Assembly: GCA_024226335.1 (NCBI GenBank)
Contig: JAAELY010000049.1
Span: forward strand, 1-49,144
Origin: a bacterium
GTDB taxonomy: Bacteria > Myxococcota_A > UBA9160 > SZUA-336
Reading direction: 5' to 3'
Length of the DNA stretch: 49,144 bases
Shown here: piece by piece, positions 11,741 to 18,373 of the stretch
Layout of the letters: each line of letters opens with the position of its first letter
Position numbering within the stretch: the stretch's first letter is position 1
Translations under genes and position numbers: made by a program
The notes under the pieces: generated by a model
Databases searched by the model: none
The model's input: the letters and a program-made list of their open reading frames with translations, nothing else
What the model was told of the DNA's origin: nothing

Positions 11741-13036
11741 CTACTGCAACTCCTGAATGCCCTGATGCAGAAGATCGAAGAGCGGTTCGATCTCGGACTT
11801 CTCCAGACACGAAAACGCTACGCGAATATCGCTGGCGCCGATTGCGATCAAACCCACGCCATACTTTTCCAGCAAGTGGAGGCGCAGCTTCTCGGCGTCG
11901 ACACCCTTCACGTCGACACACATGAAGTAGCCGGCGTTGAACGGGTAGATGTCCCAGCTATCGCGGTAAGCCTCGCGAAGCGAGACCTCCCGTACCTCGA
12001 GCGCACGCGCCTTCAGGATCTCGAATTTCTCGCGGCGCTCAGCATCAATCGTCGGTGATCGCAATGCGGCCAGCACGACGCTCTGCGAAGAATGTGTGCA
12101 GTTGCTGATCCCACCGCGAATCGCTCCCATGACCTTCTTCTCGAGTGCGGCGAGTGCGGCTTCGGGATCACCCGTCACCGGCGGTGCGAACGTGATGAAA
12201 CCGCATCGCAGGCCCCAGACGAACAACTCCTTGGTCGCACCATCGAGCTTCACGGTCAGCACGTTCTCGTGGATGTTCGAAAGCAATCCGAACGGCGACT
12301 CCTGAATCGCAGCGTCATCGAAAACCAGACCGAAATAGGCATCGTCACAAACCACGAGCAGCTTCTGTCCAGCAGTTGCGGCCTCGATGACCGCATCTCG
12401 GATGCCCTCGACCTCGGCTCGCGTCGGCATGTAGCCGGTCGGATTGTTCGGGAAGTTGAGCAACACAATGCTCTTGCCCGAACCGGCCAGGAGTGTTTCG
12501 CGCAATCCGGCCACGTTGAAGCCACTGCCATCGTAGGTGGGAAAGGTCTCCACCTTTGCGCCGAGTCGCACCTCGTAGGTGAGGCGGTAGTTTCCCCAGA
12601 GTTTGTCGGGCAGGACGATGCGGTCACCGGGATCCACGAACAGGTCGCCGACGAGCGAGAGCCCGTGGGTGATCGCATGGGTTACGACCGGCGTGCCAAA
12701 AGTAACCCCTGACAGACTGGGATTCTCGCGCAGCAGCTTCTCGCGCCAAGCCTTGCGCAACTCCGGCTTTCCAGCCGCCGGGGCATAACGCACGGCTTCG
12801 GCCGGGCTGATGCCCGAGTAGTGTTCGAGCACCGCAGCGAGCGCCATCGGACCGTGGTCTTCAGTGGCTTCGCCGATCGTCGCGTTGAAGCGATGAGCCT
12901 TTTCGCGAGCCTCCGCCGATTGCGAGAGGATGCCCTTGGGGAAATAGAGCGCGCGTCCGCGCTCCGAGAGCAGCGAAAACATGGTTGGACACGCGGACTG
13001 GATCTGTTCGTTGAGTTGTGTAGCTAGGGGGTTCAT
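11741..13036 (-). CDS. class I/II PLP-dependent aminotransferase
   Basis: This fold-type I aminotransferase is 431 residues from ATG 13036. Visible features are the substrate/PLP region YAPAAGKPELRKAW, the PLP phosphate contact TFGTPVVTHAITHGLS, NFPNNPTGYMPT (Asn/Pro of the active site), CDDAYFGLVFDD, and the Schiff-base Lys in DGATKELFVWGLRCGF. The C-terminal Arg lies in SDIRVAFSCLE. The amino donor cannot be inferred. Family members often start MNPLAxxLN, which favours ATG 13036 over the longer GTG form at 13087. It lies 117 nt downstream of the GNAT gene on the same strand. Confidence 0.9.
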   Translation of the reverse strand: MNPLATQLNEQIQSACPTMFSLLSERGRALYFPKGILSQSAEAREKAHRFNATIGEATEDHGPMALAAVLEHYSGISPAEAVRYAPAAGKPELRKAWREKLLRENPSLSGVTFGTPVVTHAITHGLSLVGDLFVDPGDRIVLPDKLWGNYRLTYEVRLGAKVETFPTYDGSGFNVAGLRETLLAGSGKSIVLLNFPNNPTGYMPTRAEVEGIRDAVIEAATAGQKLLVVCDDAYFGLVFDDAAIQESPFGLLSNIHENVLTVKLDGATKELFVWGLRCGFITFAPPVTGDPEAALAALEKKVMGAIRGGISNCTHSSQSVVLAALRSPTIDAERREKFEILKARALEVREVSLREAYRDSWDIYPFNAGYFMCVDVKGVDAEKLRLHLLEKYGVGLIAIGASDIRVAFSCLEKSEIEPLFDLLHQGIQELQ

Positions 13037-13153
13037 GGCGCGCAGCAGATTAGCAGCCCGCCGGAAGGCCCGCCCCCACTGGCCCACCTTCTCCAGCCGT
13101 TCCGACCCGCACCAGCAGGTGCCGGGACTCGCAAACGCGTCACGAAGCGTCTC

Positions 13154-13636
13154 TCAGGTGCTGGGCAACTCGAGCACACGCGAGCGCTCCACGAAACGAT
13201 GCCGTTCCCAGAACCGCTGACCCTCGAGATTCGCGCTCTCGACCCTGACCGCAATTCCCGCTGTGTCGAAGTCCTTCAGGGAGTCCCGAGCGTATTCCAC
13301 GAGTGCGCTGCCCAGACCCAGCCGACGCTGCTCCTCGCGCACGAAGAGTTCGTGAATCCAGGAAACCGCCGACGAGCGCAGGGCGGCGTTGCCCGGGATC
13401 TCGGATTCGGCGAAGAGAAAACCGTCAATCCGTCGCTCACACTCGACCACCAGGATGAAACATGCGGGATTCTGAATGCCGCGCTGAATCTCCGACTTCA
13501 ACGTCCGTAACAATTCAGAGGCGGGCGGATGATCGGAACCGAGCGCGCGGTGGTACTCGATCAACTGCAACCAGAGCCGCAACACTTCAGTGCGGTCTGC
13601 GAGAGAAGCCCTGCGTATCTGGTGGTGCTCGCCCAT
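13154..13636 (-). CDS. GNAT family N-acetyltransferase
   Basis: The 160-residue single-domain GNAT protein has the typical order: N-terminal IRRASLADRTEVLRLW, a central strand FILVVECERRIDGFLF, then motif A around ELFVREEQRRLGLGSALVEYA (acetyl-CoA pyrophosphate loop, RRLGLGSAL). The C-terminal motif is SANLEGQRFWERHRFVE. The acceptor substrate is unknown. The ATG at 13636 lies 5 nt after the stop of the upstream exported-protein gene, so the two are co-transcribed. Confidence 0.88.
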   Translation of the reverse strand: MGEHHQIRRASLADRTEVLRLWLQLIEYHRALGSDHPPASELLRTLKSEIQRGIQNPACFILVVECERRIDGFLFAESEIPGNAALRSSAVSWIHELFVREEQRRLGLGSALVEYARDSLKDFDTAGIAVRVESANLEGQRFWERHRFVERSRVLELPST

Positions 13637-13641
13637 GGGAG

Positions 13642-14319
13642 CTACTTGACGACCCGGCGCTCCTTGGACCGAATCAGGCGTAGGCTGCCCTGCTTCGTGT
13701 CCTCGGAATAGCGACCGATCAGATCTCCTTCAGGGGTCTTCTCGGTGATCTCGTAGATGATCGCCTCCTCCATCTCACCTAGCATTTCGCTCCCGCCCGA
13801 GAGCGAGTCCGTCACCAGGATGCGCACTTTCTCCGGCAAAAAGGCGATCTTCCAGATCTGGGTGAAACTCATCGTCATGGCCCCACCCGAACCCATCGGT
13901 GGAGGCGATGCAAAGCCCTTCTCGTGATTCCCTTTGAGCCTCTTGGATTTCATGGCGCGAGAAGCCACATCCAGATTCGTGCGCAACGCATCCAGGACTC
14001 CGCCCTCCGGTTGCCAGACTTGATGGGAGCGCATCGCGAAACGCCGAAGCTCCTCGGACCCCTTGTCGAATACGACGTAGGGATAGCTCTGGATGGTCAG
14101 CTTGTTCTCACCGGCCTCGATCGACCAGGCGAAATCCTTGAACTTGGTGATCGACTTGTCCTCGGACCGACTGTCCTTGTAGTGCACCAGCACGTACCAG
14201 TCGCCGGTGAGGTCGAGTTTGGACAGATCCTCGGCCCTGGCGAGGCCGGGGCCTGCGACCAGCAGGAGAGCGAGAGTCCAGCTCAGAAGTCCGATGGGGC
14301 TGAATTCGATTTTCGTCAT
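13642..14319 (-). CDS. exported protein of unknown function
   Basis: The 225-residue protein has a clear Sec signal peptide (MTKIEF, hydrophobic LLSWTLALLLVAGPGLA, cleavage near ARAED). The mature part starts LDLTGDWYVLVHYKD, which with later alternating strands (YPYVVFDKG, LIGRYSEDTKQGSLRLI) suggests a small lipocalin-like or calycin-type beta barrel. That is a guess from pattern only. ATG at 14319 has GGAG 5 nt upstream. It heads the group with the GNAT and aminotransferase genes. Confidence 0.75.
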   Translation of the reverse strand: MTKIEFSPIGLLSWTLALLLVAGPGLARAEDLSKLDLTGDWYVLVHYKDSRSEDKSITKFKDFAWSIEAGENKLTIQSYPYVVFDKGSEELRRFAMRSHQVWQPEGGVLDALRTNLDVASRAMKSKRLKGNHEKGFASPPPMGSGGAMTMSFTQIWKIAFLPEKVRILVTDSLSGGSEMLGEMEEAIIYEITEKTPEGDLIGRYSEDTKQGSLRLIRSKERRVVK

Positions 14320-14636
14320 TGAGACTCCAGTATAGCCGGCCCCTTCGAGGCCTGACCGCGAGGTCCGACTGCGAAGCTCAGACGCGCACTCCGGGCGGCA
14401 GATTCGCGGAATTGAGGCACCGTCCACAGGAACTGTGGTGTAAACTCGTCGCCAGGTACGGTAACGAACCCCCTTTTCTCCTCCTGGGCACTGCCGCGGG
14501 CCTTTTCGCGACCGCCGGCAGATTTCGAGCTTTTCCGGGGGGTCGTGGCAACCGGTCGCGGATGGTTTGCGTGCGGCACGGATGTTGCGCGGTCTGAGAC
14601 CGGAAAACTGCGACTTGCGCTGGAGAATGGTCTGTA
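14320..14636. other. divergent intergenic region
   Basis: These 317 nt lie between two divergent genes. A small hairpin CCACAG-GAA-CTGTGG sits near 14425-14439. No well-spaced -35/-10 pair was found on either strand, and no convincing small gene. GGAG about 11 nt before 14637 is the ribosome site of the plus-strand gene. Confidence 0.5.
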
Positions 14637-16640
14637 ATGTCGACGATCTGGATCGTTTCGGAGGATCGAGCTTGGCTGGACAGCCTCGCCTACCACCTCC
14701 GCGCGCTCGGCGAGGTCTGGACTGGACCGCCCGAACGCGGGCATTGGCGGGGTGCGGAGACGCCGGACCTGATTGCGCTTCTCGGAGTCGACGCGGCCAG
14801 CGGTGATCTGTCGGGGCTCGAGCGTCTGCTGGACTTCATTCGCGGCGTGCCACACCTCGGCCGGTCGCCCCAACCACTGATCTACGCTGAACCGCCTGGA
14901 AGCCACCCGTCGGGGGAGACCGCGCGGCGCCTGATCGACGATCGCAAGATCGCGCTCGCGAGCTGGCCTCTGGAACCGGACGACCTGGTCGACCTCGGCG
15001 CACGTTTGCTGCAGACGAACGAGTTGCCCATCTCGCTGCGCGAGCGGGAACGACGCGACTGGGTCGGGGAACGCGTCGAAATTCTGTACGCGGATCTCGA
15101 TCTTCCGGCTCTGCGTCAAGCCGTCAATCCGCGCAACGCAGCGCGCCCGGTCTTGCTGCTGGGCGAACCGGGGACCCGACGCGGCCTGCTGGCGCGTTAC
15201 GTCCACAATCTGGCAGAGCCTGCGCGTGACCGCTTGATCGTGTTACCGGCAGCGGATCTCTCTGCCCACGAACTCGAACGCCGAGTCCTCGGCGAGAGCG
15301 TTGGAGAGCGCGTCACGTTGTTTCTTTCCGGCCTCGAACGCGCGGATCACGCGCGTCAGGAAGAGATCGCCGAGTTCCTGGGCGCCAGCGGCGCTCTGGG
15401 CATCGAACAGATCCGCTGGCTGGCATCGGCGGCGCGGACGGCCGGGTTGGCGCCCGGGTTGCGCGGGCTGCCGTGGATTCGCGTTGAGCTGCCGTCACTC
15501 CGCAACCGCGCGGACCGGGAACCGCTCATCCGCTCCCTGGCCCGGGCCTGGTCGAAGCGAAGCGGTCGCGAGGTCGAGTTCGACGCAGAGGCTCTCACGG
15601 TTTTGACGCGTTACGCGTGGCCCGGCAATCTGCGGGAACTCGAGTCCGTGATCGACGCGAGTTGCTCCGCGGCAAGCGGCTCGAACGTGCGCGCGGAAGA
15701 TGTCCAGCTCGGACCTCGAGGTGTCGCTCCGGTTGCCCGCGTCACGCCCGAAGAAGACTCGCCAGAAGCCGATTTTGCAACCGGGAGCCTGGATGAACTC
15801 ACCGAGAGCACGTTCTCGGACCTGGACGAGGCCGAATTCGGCCCTCTGGCCAATGAAATCGAACTGGAACCCGGGGACGAAGATCTCGAACTCGACGTGG
15901 TCGAACCCCTGCGGGCCGTGCACCTGGAAGCGGTCGAGGAGGAACCCGAAGCCGCGACTGATCCGGCGTCGGACCCAGGACCCGGCACTTCGGAGCTTCC
16001 TCGACTGACCGAGGTCATGCCCGCACTCGCCCAGGAGATCCGCCTGCCGCTGCGTGCGATCCGCACCTGCGCCAATCTGGTCGATCAACAACCAGACGAC
16101 GCGAGTCGCCGGCAAGAGCTGGCAACCCTGTTCGAAAACGATCTCGGGCGACTCGAAGAAATCCTGACGCGACTCGAAACGTATTCAAAGTTCGGCCGCG
16201 CGGAGGAGCAGAGCTTTGATCTGGCCGCGAGCGTCGCTTCTGAACTCGACGCCCATCACGAAACCGTGCGCTCCAAAGCCCTGGTCGTGCTTCGAGAACT
16301 CGATCATGACGCACCCCAGACGCGCGGCGACGAGACTCAAGTCCGCTTTGCAATCGGCAGTTTGCTGAGCCGTGCATTGCGTATGGTTCCAGCGCGCGGC
16401 GATCTCTACGTGGGCAGCAAGTTCCTGCCCGCTGCGAACGACAGGGCCGGACGGCACCGGCTGCTGATTCGATTCCACAGCCCGGAAGAAGTTCTGGTCG
16501 GACCAGATGACGGGCCAGAACCCCGGATCCCGATCGAGGTCATGCTGGCGCGGGAGTTGATCGAACGCAGCGGCGGACGCTTCGCCGTAGATGCGTCAGG
16601 TGCTCAAGACAACCTGATCCTCGTCGAACTCGGCGGCTAA
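14637..16640 (+). CDS. degenerate AAA+/histidine kinase-like fusion protein
   Basis: The 667-residue protein appears to combine four modules. Residues 1-125 resemble a receiver fold without a clear phospho-acceptor. Residues 165-340 resemble the sigma54-activator AAA+ domain: Walker A is broken (LLGEPGTRRG at 174-183, no GK[T/S/E]), Walker B reads LFLSGL instead of LFLDEI (228-233), and GAFTGA is missing, yet the ending YAWPGNLRELESVI (326-339) is intact. Residues 365-450 are an acidic linker. Residues 455-667 resemble a histidine kinase: DHp AQEIRLPLRAIR (465-476) has Gln at the usual His, and the N-box GSLLSRALRMVP lacks the usual Asn. It therefore probably acts as a non-catalytic scaffold or sensor. 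It starts at ATG 14637 and is followed by an unknown gene and tat genes. Confidence 0.75.
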   Translation: MSTIWIVSEDRAWLDSLAYHLRALGEVWTGPPERGHWRGAETPDLIALLGVDAASGDLSGLERLLDFIRGVPHLGRSPQPLIYAEPPGSHPSGETARRLIDDRKIALASWPLEPDDLVDLGARLLQTNELPISLRERERRDWVGERVEILYADLDLPALRQAVNPRNAARPVLLLGEPGTRRGLLARYVHNLAEPARDRLIVLPAADLSAHELERRVLGESVGERVTLFLSGLERADHARQEEIAEFLGASGALGIEQIRWLASAARTAGLAPGLRGLPWIRVELPSLRNRADREPLIRSLARAWSKRSGREVEFDAEALTVLTRYAWPGNLRELESVIDASCSAASGSNVRAEDVQLGPRGVAPVARVTPEEDSPEADFATGSLDELTESTFSDLDEAEFGPLANEIELEPGDEDLELDVVEPLRAVHLEAVEEEPEAATDPASDPGPGTSELPRLTEVMPALAQEIRLPLRAIRTCANLVDQQPDDASRRQELATLFENDLGRLEEILTRLETYSKFGRAEEQSFDLAASVASELDAHHETVRSKALVVLRELDHDAPQTRGDETQVRFAIGSLLSRALRMVPARGDLYVGSKFLPAANDRAGRHRLLIRFHSPEEVLVGPDDGPEPRIPIEVMLARELIERSGGRFAVDASGAQDNLILVELGG

Positions 16641-16660: not shown

Positions 16661-17182
16661 TTGGGAGCCGCTGCAAAGAAGCTCGCTGCAACTGTGATCG
16701 GCGTCGATGTCGACGGCGATGCCGTGGTTGTCCGCTATGCGCCCAGGCGCGGATCTCCCAACGAAATCGAAGACCGAATCGTCCTGGCCCCGAAGGGTGA
16801 AATGATCGCGGTCAACGGCGTTGGGCGACTCCTGCGGATTCTGAAGGCCGCTCGCGTCAGAGCGCCGCGGGATCCCTACAACGAATGCGCCGACCCGAAC
16901 CGAGCGGCGACGCTACTCCACAAGTGCCGTGGCGTCATAGTGGATCTGCACGTGGCGCGCCGTTTCAACCGAGGCCTCAAGATCTGGACCGAAGAGGGTG
17001 TCGAGCGCATCAGCGGAGTGATCGATTACACCGAAACACCAGATGCACTCGAGATTCGTCGACGTGGAGGTCGGTCCGTCTTGAACATCCCAAAACTGAA
17101 CATCATCCGCTTTGAACTCTCCTCTGAGGAGTACTACGTCGTGACTTCAATCGAGGCTTCATCACGATTTCCCTTGCGGTAA
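16661..17182 (+). CDS. protein of unknown function
   Basis: The 173-residue soluble protein is not recognised. It begins with a strand-rich segment (VIGVDVDGDAVVVRYAP), then IVLAPKGEMIAVNGVGRLLRIL. Later parts include CRGVIVDLHVARRFNRGLKIW and IDYTETPDALEIRRRGG, so a mixed alpha/beta fold is likely. TTG at 16661 is the first usable start in the open frame; GTG at 16694 (IGVDVDGD) is an alternative. It begins 20 nt after the degenerate kinase gene on the same strand, so the two may be co-expressed. The next 194 nt before tatA/B show no gene. Confidence 0.6.
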   Translation: MGAAAKKLAATVIGVDVDGDAVVVRYAPRRGSPNEIEDRIVLAPKGEMIAVNGVGRLLRILKAARVRAPRDPYNECADPNRAATLLHKCRGVIVDLHVARRFNRGLKIWTEEGVERISGVIDYTETPDALEIRRRGGRSVLNIPKLNIIRFELSSEEYYVVTSIEASSRFPLR

Positions 17183-17376
17183 CGTCGCATTACTGACTAG
17201 TCTTCGTACCCAGGTACGGGTAGTTGCCGCCAGGTACTGCAGAACTTTCTGCTGGGGGGTAGGAGAGTTCGAGGTACAGGGCGGCACCCCGTACCGGTTG
17301 CGTTTGACGGAACGCGCTACCTTCTAACCCTCGTCGAGTTCCTCTCGCCGAGTTCAGACGGAGGCGGAAACAGAAC

Positions 17377-17640
17377 GTGTTCGGCATCGGAATGCCTGAG
17401 CTCCTGATGATTCTGGTGGTGGCACTTCTAGTGCTCGGACCGAAGCGTCTACCCGAGATCGCTCGCTCCCTCGGGCGGGGCATGTCGGAGTTCCGCCGTG
17501 CCTCCAACGAGCTGCGTTCGACTCTCAGCGAACCTCTCGAGAAACCGGCCGACTCGCGCCCCGAACCTGCACCTGCACCTGCACCTGCAGGAGCGCCGGA
17601 GAGCGAAAAGCCATCGGAAACCAAATCGGCTGATGACTGA
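17377..17640 (+). CDS. tatB: Sec-independent translocase TatA/TatB family subunit
   Basis: The 87-residue protein has the Tat A/B layout: a short N-terminal helix with Glu at position 8 (MFGIGMPELLMILVVALLVL), the hinge GPKRLPEIA, an amphipathic helix RSLGRGMSEFRRASNELRSTL, and a Pro/Ala-rich polar tail. The GxPE start and GPKRLPE hinge resemble TatB slightly more than TatA. It is followed immediately by tatC, and with it would form the translocon for folded twin-arginine substrates in the inner membrane. No second TatA is present here. The start is GTG at 17377 with GGAGG about 12 nt upstream. The tail contains a short run of CCTGCA hexamers (17565-17589) coding Pro-Ala repeats. Confidence 0.85.
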   Translation: MFGIGMPELLMILVVALLVLGPKRLPEIARSLGRGMSEFRRASNELRSTLSEPLEKPADSRPEPAPAPAPAGAPESEKPSETKSADD

Positions 17641-18373
17641 CGATCCGCGGCCCGTCCTGGAGCATCTCGACGAGTTGCGGAAGCGCCTGTTCTGGGTGCT
17701 CGGCACATGGACGGTGTTCGCGCTGACCGCGGGCTATTTTGCGCGCGATGTCTTCGAGATCCTCATGAGTCCCGCGGTATCCACTGTGCGCGAGGCGGGA
17801 CACAAACTGATCGCCATCGCTCCTCCCGAACTCTTCCTCACATATGTAAAGACTGCGATCCTCGCGGGCTTCCTCGTGTCCATGCCCATGACCTTGTATC
17901 AGGCCTGGAGTTTCATTGCGCCCGGTTTGTACGAGAACGAAAAGCGCTTTGCATTGCCTTTCGTCGTCGCGACTTCGCTCCTGTTCGCGACTGGATGTTC
18001 GTTCGGGTACTTCGTCGCATTCCCACAAGTGTTCGAGTGGTTTCTTTCCCTGGAAGCCGACTACGTTACGACCAGCTGGACCACGCAGACGGTATTCGGA
18101 TTCATGGCACGCCTGTATCTCGCCTTTGGCCTGGCCTTCGAACTACCCATCGTGCTCGTGTTCCTGTCACTCGCGCGCATCGTCAGCCCCCAGCAGCTGG
18201 CTGCGTGGCGGAAGTACGCTTTCCTGATCATGTTCGTGGTCGCTGCTGTGCTGACTCCGCAAGACGTCGCCAGTCAGATCATGCTCGCGATTCCGCTCAT
18301 CATGCTGTACGAGATCAGCATCTGGGTTTCCTACGCCCTGGTCGGCCGGAAGAGCGCGAAGACCGAAGACTGA
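17633..18373 (+). CDS. tatC: Sec-independent protein translocase TatC
   Basis: The 246-residue polytopic membrane protein has six expected transmembrane segments. The hallmarks are the N-terminal LEHLDELRKRLFW (Tat signal-peptide binding face), FLTYVKTAILAGFLVSMPM, YQAWSFIAPGLYENEKRF, and FGLAFELPIVLVFL in TM5. It recognises twin-arginine signal peptides. The ATG at 17633 overlaps the tatA/B stop by 8 nt, so the two are translationally coupled. A longer open frame to 17498 exists but is a shadow of the tatA/B tail. Confidence 0.95.
   Translation: MTDDPRPVLEHLDELRKRLFWVLGTWTVFALTAGYFARDVFEILMSPAVSTVREAGHKLIAIAPPELFLTYVKTAILAGFLVSMPMTLYQAWSFIAPGLYENEKRFALPFVVATSLLFATGCSFGYFVAFPQVFEWFLSLEADYVTTSWTTQTVFGFMARLYLAFGLAFELPIVLVFLSLARIVSPQQLAAWRKYAFLIMFVVAAVLTPQDVASQIMLAIPLIMLYEISIWVSYALVGRKSAKTED

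Follow-up and report, generated by a model that had tools for sequence, protein, structure and literature searches.

The window, that is, the whole 49,144-nt stretch of DNA that was analyzed, contains on its forward strand an open reading frame of 667 codons that starts with ATG, has no internal stops and has GGAG 11 bases 5' of the start codon (Table 1). The GC fractions at codon positions 1, 2 and 3 were 0.76, 0.48 and 0.73, respectively, and the orthologues were alike in this respect. The product joins receiver-like, sigma54-AAA+-like and histidine kinase-like parts. An earlier note, made from the letters alone, had quoted several dead motifs (GEPGTRRG, LFLSGL, AQEIRLPLR and a missing N-box Asn), and we found all of them where it had placed them; YAWPGNLRELESVI is present in the lid. 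We additionally found that the receiver-like part lacks the Asp and Lys, and that the Asn of the HExxN motif in the DHp is Leu470. Across the class, the fusion gene is followed by genes for an NtrC-type response regulator (REC, sigma54 AAA+ and Fis HTH; hereafter RR), a REC-HD-GYP protein, a PilZ protein, TatA/B and TatC, some of which are absent in some genomes, and genes for an aminotransferase, a GNAT protein and a conserved protein lie on the opposite strand. In the family to which the window's genome belongs (f1), the RR, HD-GYP and PilZ genes are missing and a gene for a 173-aa protein lies between the fusion gene and the Tat genes. This gene is next to the fusion gene in the nine f1 genomes that have the latter, is retained in the two that do not, and adjoins TatC in f1, although it is divergent in G003. 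The 173-aa protein belongs to no Pfam family; it gave a confident model (pLDDT 86) and only weak OB/Sm-like fold matches. That it is a worn PilZ domain was unsupported (hhalign probability 0.2%).

Table 1. Features of the fusion gene and its neighbors in the window
Feature	Position	Strand	Basis
Pseudo-receiver / pseudo-AAA+ / DHp / pseudo-CA fusion protein, 667 aa	14637..16640	+	ORF, family distribution, structure model
Receiver-like domain, residues 1-128; other residues in place of phospho-acceptor Asp and conserved Lys	14637..15020	+	Alignment with intact RR P0001; strand/helix alternation in model; Response_reg matches 0/24
Sigma54-type AAA+-like domain and lid, residues 129-360; L1/GAFTGA and Arg-finger segments deleted	15021..15716	+	Pfam, Foldseek, alignment
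Walker A remnant GEPGTRRG, residues 176-183; family consensus GExGTGRG, Arg for Lys	15162..15185	+	Alignment
Walker B remnant LFLSGL, residues 228-233; LEDV/LDEV-type in most relatives	15318..15335	+	Alignment
Disordered acidic linker, residues 361-455, fast-evolving	15717..16001	+	pLDDT about 30; pN/pS 0.76-1.08
DHp-like helical hairpin (HisKA), residues 456-520	16002..16196	+	Pfam; modelled helices 457-482 and 489-517
Gln466 codon at phospho-acceptor His position (motif AQEIRLPLR)	16032..16034	+	His in 60/60 orthologues with partner RR
Leu470 codon at Asn position of HExxN	16044..16046	+	Asn in 60/60 orthologues with partner RR
CA (Bergerat)-like domain without N, G1, F and G2 boxes, residues 521-667	16197..16637	+	HATPase_c matches 0/24; model mostly confident
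HR.L.RFHSPE.VL stretch, residues 607-620, near former G1-box region	16455..16496	+	Kept in nine f1 proteins
Aminotransferase-like gene, GNAT acetyltransferase and conserved protein; conserved divergent neighbors	11741..14427	-	Neighborhood comparison
173-aa protein of no known family, in place of RR, HD-GYP and PilZ genes	16661..17182	+	Neighborhood comparison in f1
TatA/B-like frame and TatC, conserved downstream neighbors	17308..18373	+	Neighborhood comparison

The window protein matched AAA_lid_14 of Pfam with an E-value of 8.8e-13, and HisKA (0.003) and the Sigma54 domains scored under the curated cut-offs. Among 24 family members, AAA_lid_14 was matched by all and HisKA and Sigma54_activ_2 by 22 each, and neither Response_reg nor HATPase_c was matched by any of the 24 at E<=0.01. 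An AlphaFold2 model built with 24 orthologues had a mean pLDDT of 78 with the domains well modelled, and showed in order a receiver-like domain, an AAA+ core with its lid, the linker (361-455), a long helical hairpin and a Bergerat-like alpha/beta domain; its pTM was 0.48 and the placing of the domains relative to each other is unreliable. With Foldseek, the first half of the model matched the REC-AAA+ regulators NtrC1 and NtrX (1ny5, E=6.8e-15; 5m7p), and the second half matched the histidine kinase DHp-CA structures RetS, GacS, ZraS, HK853 and DivL, with RetS, ZraS and DivL at E~1e-11. The profile matches thus bear out the domain assignment of the earlier note, and the model, which it had proposed as a check for an unrelated fold, pointed the same way. 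Judged from sequence and predicted fold, the domain homology is beyond chance.

The protein has the AAA+ fold and lid of a sigma54 activator (AAA_lid_14 and the 1ny5/NtrX fold matches), and in the alignment none of the hallmarks of such activators, namely the Walker A Lys, the Walker B DE, the GAFTGA loop and the Arg fingers, was found in it. A C-terminal Fis-type HTH was not matched in the fusion protein, where the DHp-CA part comes after the lid. The DHp domain of a HisKA kinase is present, with two long modelled helices, and the N, G1, F and G2 boxes of HATPase_c are missing, the N-box also in the alignment. The receiver set of phospho-acceptor Asp, acidic pair and Lys was likewise not found, with the Asp and Lys positions replaced in the alignment to P0001. 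What remains of the kinase end is a degenerate CA fold of the Spo0B/ChpT/PhyT type behind a DHp from which, in the window protein, the transferable His is missing.

By profile search, the family was detected in 44 of 50 genomes of the same class; 187 genomes of other Myxococcota classes gave no full-length match, and the best hit there was a generic NtrC-like protein (E=3.9e-48, profile positions 6-372). The fusion gene is present as a single copy in 82 of the 91 class genomes, mostly MAGs, and most orthologues are full-length; a few copies are interrupted by contig ends and that of G277 is split by a frame break. The named orthologue records are Deltaproteobacteria/Myxococcota MAGs. The REC-AAA+-kinase fusion is thus unusual, as had been remarked before, and in the phylum sample it is confined to one class; the papers searched held no description of this architecture.

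All nine f1 orthologues have an open frame and share about 45-55% identity with the window protein. Within f1, pN/pS was 0.44-0.50 for the DHp-CA part, 0.50-0.57 for the AAA+ part, 0.56-0.71 for the receiver-like part and 0.76-1.08 for the linker, values that are indications only since pS was near saturation. We counted 106 residues invariant in the nine f1 members, 26 of which are rare outside f1. This conservation and the pN/pS values led us to reject simple pseudogene decay. Together with the full-length orthologues across the class, they support the proposal of the earlier note that the protein is a selected pseudoenzyme rather than a decaying gene. The HR.L.RFHSPE.VL stretch is conserved in the nine f1 proteins and not elsewhere, and is possibly a new binding surface.

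The alignments indicate that the motif losses fall in two layers and not in one coordinated event. The first layer is common to essentially the whole family and comprises the receiver Asp and Lys, the GAFTGA loop, the Walker A Lys and the ATP-binding boxes of the kinase; in the alignment with P0001, the intact regulator encoded beside the fusion gene in a relative, the receiver Asp and Lys are gone from the family, as are the Arg-finger and L1/GAFTGA segments. The Walker A glycines are kept with Lys changed to Arg in 71 of 76 rows. The second layer is lineage-specific: the DHp His is kept in 66 and the HExxN Asn in 67 of the 79 aligned orthologues, so the previous claim of a coordinated loss of every motif did not hold. 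Orthologues with intact Walker and His motifs had been named as evidence against a pseudoenzyme. The His is indeed intact in most relatives, but the whole family shares the losses in the AAA+, receiver and ATP-binding parts, and we therefore reject a recent, isolated decay among fully intact orthologues. In f1 both the DHp His and the Asn are gone, except that G009 kept the His, and the P-loop Gly181 is lost in six of the nine members. Four orthologues have the Walker A Lys and not the family Arg: G232 (L180), G032 (L027, genus g28), G001 (L002) and G019 (L148). The AAA+ part may bind nucleotide in these four and in some relatives with a Walker B DE.

The partner RR is intact and is normally the gene after the fusion gene. 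The syntenic RR was clear of its paralogues (identity of 57% or more and E<=1.7e-157; paralogues, E>=3e-129), and by this E-value threshold it occurs in 60 of the 91 class genomes; two further copies below the threshold adjoin the fusion gene in G248 and G277. None of the nine genomes that lack the fusion gene has the RR, and the pairing persists where the two genes are apart, by about 14 kb in G016 and about 3.7 kb in G015. The locus itself shows the RR to be missing in f1, G019, G021, G038, G254, G255, G256, G257 and G262, and G232 and G249 were left out of the scoring because their contigs end at the locus. On a quick-search maximum-likelihood tree this corresponds to about seven independent losses (ten before three RR labels were corrected). 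G248 and G277 had been taken as lacking the RR while keeping the His; this was withdrawn, since an RR gene, probably frame-broken, adjoins the fusion gene in each. The loci concerned are L196 3926-6178, L207 3319-4728 and L196 2605-3891: there the fusion gene of G277 is divided between two frames and the RR gene of G248 and that of G277 seem frame-broken or shortened, through assembly errors or as real pseudogenes.

Both the DHp His and the HExxN Asn are present in all 60 aligned orthologues with the RR, including the two whose RR was found beside the gene. Where the RR is absent, the His is missing in 13 of 17 orthologues, in six independent lineages including f1; the four that retain it are G009, G256, G257 and G262, and in G038 and G254 the His is lost and the Asn retained. 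Counted by tree row, the His was lost in 0/57 with the RR and 13/17 without it (Fisher p 2e-11, which ignores relatedness). All six losses fell on RR-lacking branches, which make up 29% of the tree length (p about 6e-4, or 1.5e-4 without f1). A paired sign test on the tree, run before the three labels were corrected, was not significant, with too few informative pairs, and the association rests on six or seven events. Among the 42 columns that are at least 95% conserved in RR-bearing orthologues, His466 was joint top for loss among the RR-lacking relatives that are not in f1 (5/8; mean 15%). In f1 it was lost in 8 of 9, and Thr477, the other top-loss column, was retained throughout. Such preferential loss would be expected if selection on a phosphate-handling residue relaxes once its partner is lost. 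The loss of the His and Asn is later than that of the family-wide motifs, repeated and tied to loss of the RR; the order within each lineage is inferred.

From the anatomy, conservation, co-occurrence and association of losses, we propose that the protein is a His phosphotransferase or phosphatase for the RR that arose from a dead regulator-kinase fusion, and that its second, phosphate-independent role as a scaffold is all that survives in f1; on balance we favor this reading, by a modest measure. In species with the RR, the DHp, which keeps HExxN in most of the class beside a CA-like part predicted to be unable to bind ATP, would act as a histidine phosphotransferase and/or phosphatase, by analogy with Spo0B, ChpT and PhyT, for the adjacent sigma54-dependent regulator. 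Phosphotransferases and phosphatases that arose from kinases with a dead CA domain are known (PMC5898713, PMC3433190). The kinase part is most like the ZraS/AtoS-type kinases, partners of NtrC-type regulators, in sequence and fold. Since the dead receiver and AAA+ parts match the RR's own domains in order and fold, they may serve in docking or oligomerization with it. Deletion of the RR gene would then free the phosphate-handling residues, which are lost as the fold is retained, and f1 can therefore have kept no more than the phosphate-independent side of the function. There the protein may be a dimeric scaffold or partner-sensing protein in the manner of DivL or RetS, possibly with the 173-aa protein. 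Against this reading, no candidate for an upstream phosphate donor was identified.

It is unlikely, in our estimate, that the protein is a phosphate-independent scaffold throughout the class, docking on the RR through its DHp, REC and AAA+ surfaces and controlling oligomerization with the His and Asn as docking surface only. The family-wide loss of all ATP motifs fits such a role, as does the AAA+-like core with its lid, the best-conserved part apart from the DHp-CA, and the DHp-CA fold of DivL binds a phosphorylated RR and reads its state without catalysis (PMC4211667). However, a His and Asn that are invariant where the genome has the RR, with the His preferentially lost after loss of the RR, form the pattern of a chemical and not a purely docking role. 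Somewhat less likely still is a reading in which the dead AAA+ part joins the adjacent regulator's AAA+ ring and acts there as a poison or gating subunit, the DHp sets RR phosphorylation, and in f1 the protein has been recruited into a new complex that includes the 173-aa protein; if true, one pseudoenzyme would govern both assembly and phosphorylation of the RR. We consider it doubtful that another partner, either a different regulator or the 173-aa protein, recruited the f1 protein for a new function: the two genes are neighbors in nine f1 genomes and the f1-specific invariant residues include the RFHSPE stretch, but the 173-aa gene stays beside TatC without the fusion gene and so may belong to the Tat genes. 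Least probable is that the f1 gene is a relic, slowly decaying since the regulator was lost, as its absence from two of 11 f1 genomes (G003 and G008), the long f1 branch and the loss of Gly181 could suggest, given nine open frames at about 45-55% identity, the low pN/pS of the DHp-CA part and 106 invariant residues, 26 of them nearly private to f1.

The favored phosphotransferase or phosphatase reading can be set against known systems. Like Spo0B, ChpT and PhyT, the fusion has a DHp dimerization hairpin (with the His in RR-bearing orthologues) and a CA fold without ATP binding and would serve an RR, but it adds an N-terminal pseudo-receiver and pseudo-AAA+ part and a HisKA with HExxN, and f1 lost the His. 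DivL of Caulobacter, among the better fold matches (4q20, TM 0.65), shares a DHp-CA fold without the phospho-acceptor His; it differs in carrying PAS domains, in having Tyr where the His would be and in a CA domain that is better preserved, and the window fusion in its REC-AAA+ N-terminus and lost RR gene. The kinase region of Pseudomonas RetS is the closest solved fold of this type by Foldseek E-value (6dk7), but RetS is a membrane hybrid kinase that acts on GacS and lacks an AAA+ part. Loss of GAFTGA has precedents in the NtrC family (PMC10274813); the NtrC proteins of Caulobacter and Rhodobacter share the REC-AAA+ order and the deleted L1/GAFTGA loop, but have retained a functional receiver and a DNA-binding domain, whereas the fusion has the DHp-CA after the lid and no HTH. 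The HisKA kinases of the NtrB/ZraS/AtoS type resemble the DHp-CA part in sequence and fold, but the fusion lacks ATP-binding boxes and, in the window, the His. The class thus offers about seven natural repeats of a degenerate kinase after deletion of its RR, in which the phosphate-handling residues tend to go and the protein stays, and roles of pseudokinases beyond catalysis become testable by comparing orthologues.

Weaker homologues of the 173-aa protein (27-36%) occur on other contigs of other class genomes. Across the class, the RR, HD-GYP and PilZ genes sit together upstream of tatA/tatC as a conserved cluster (L041 9988-13552, L037 10114-12932), which hints at c-di-GMP control; the f1 locus has lost all three.
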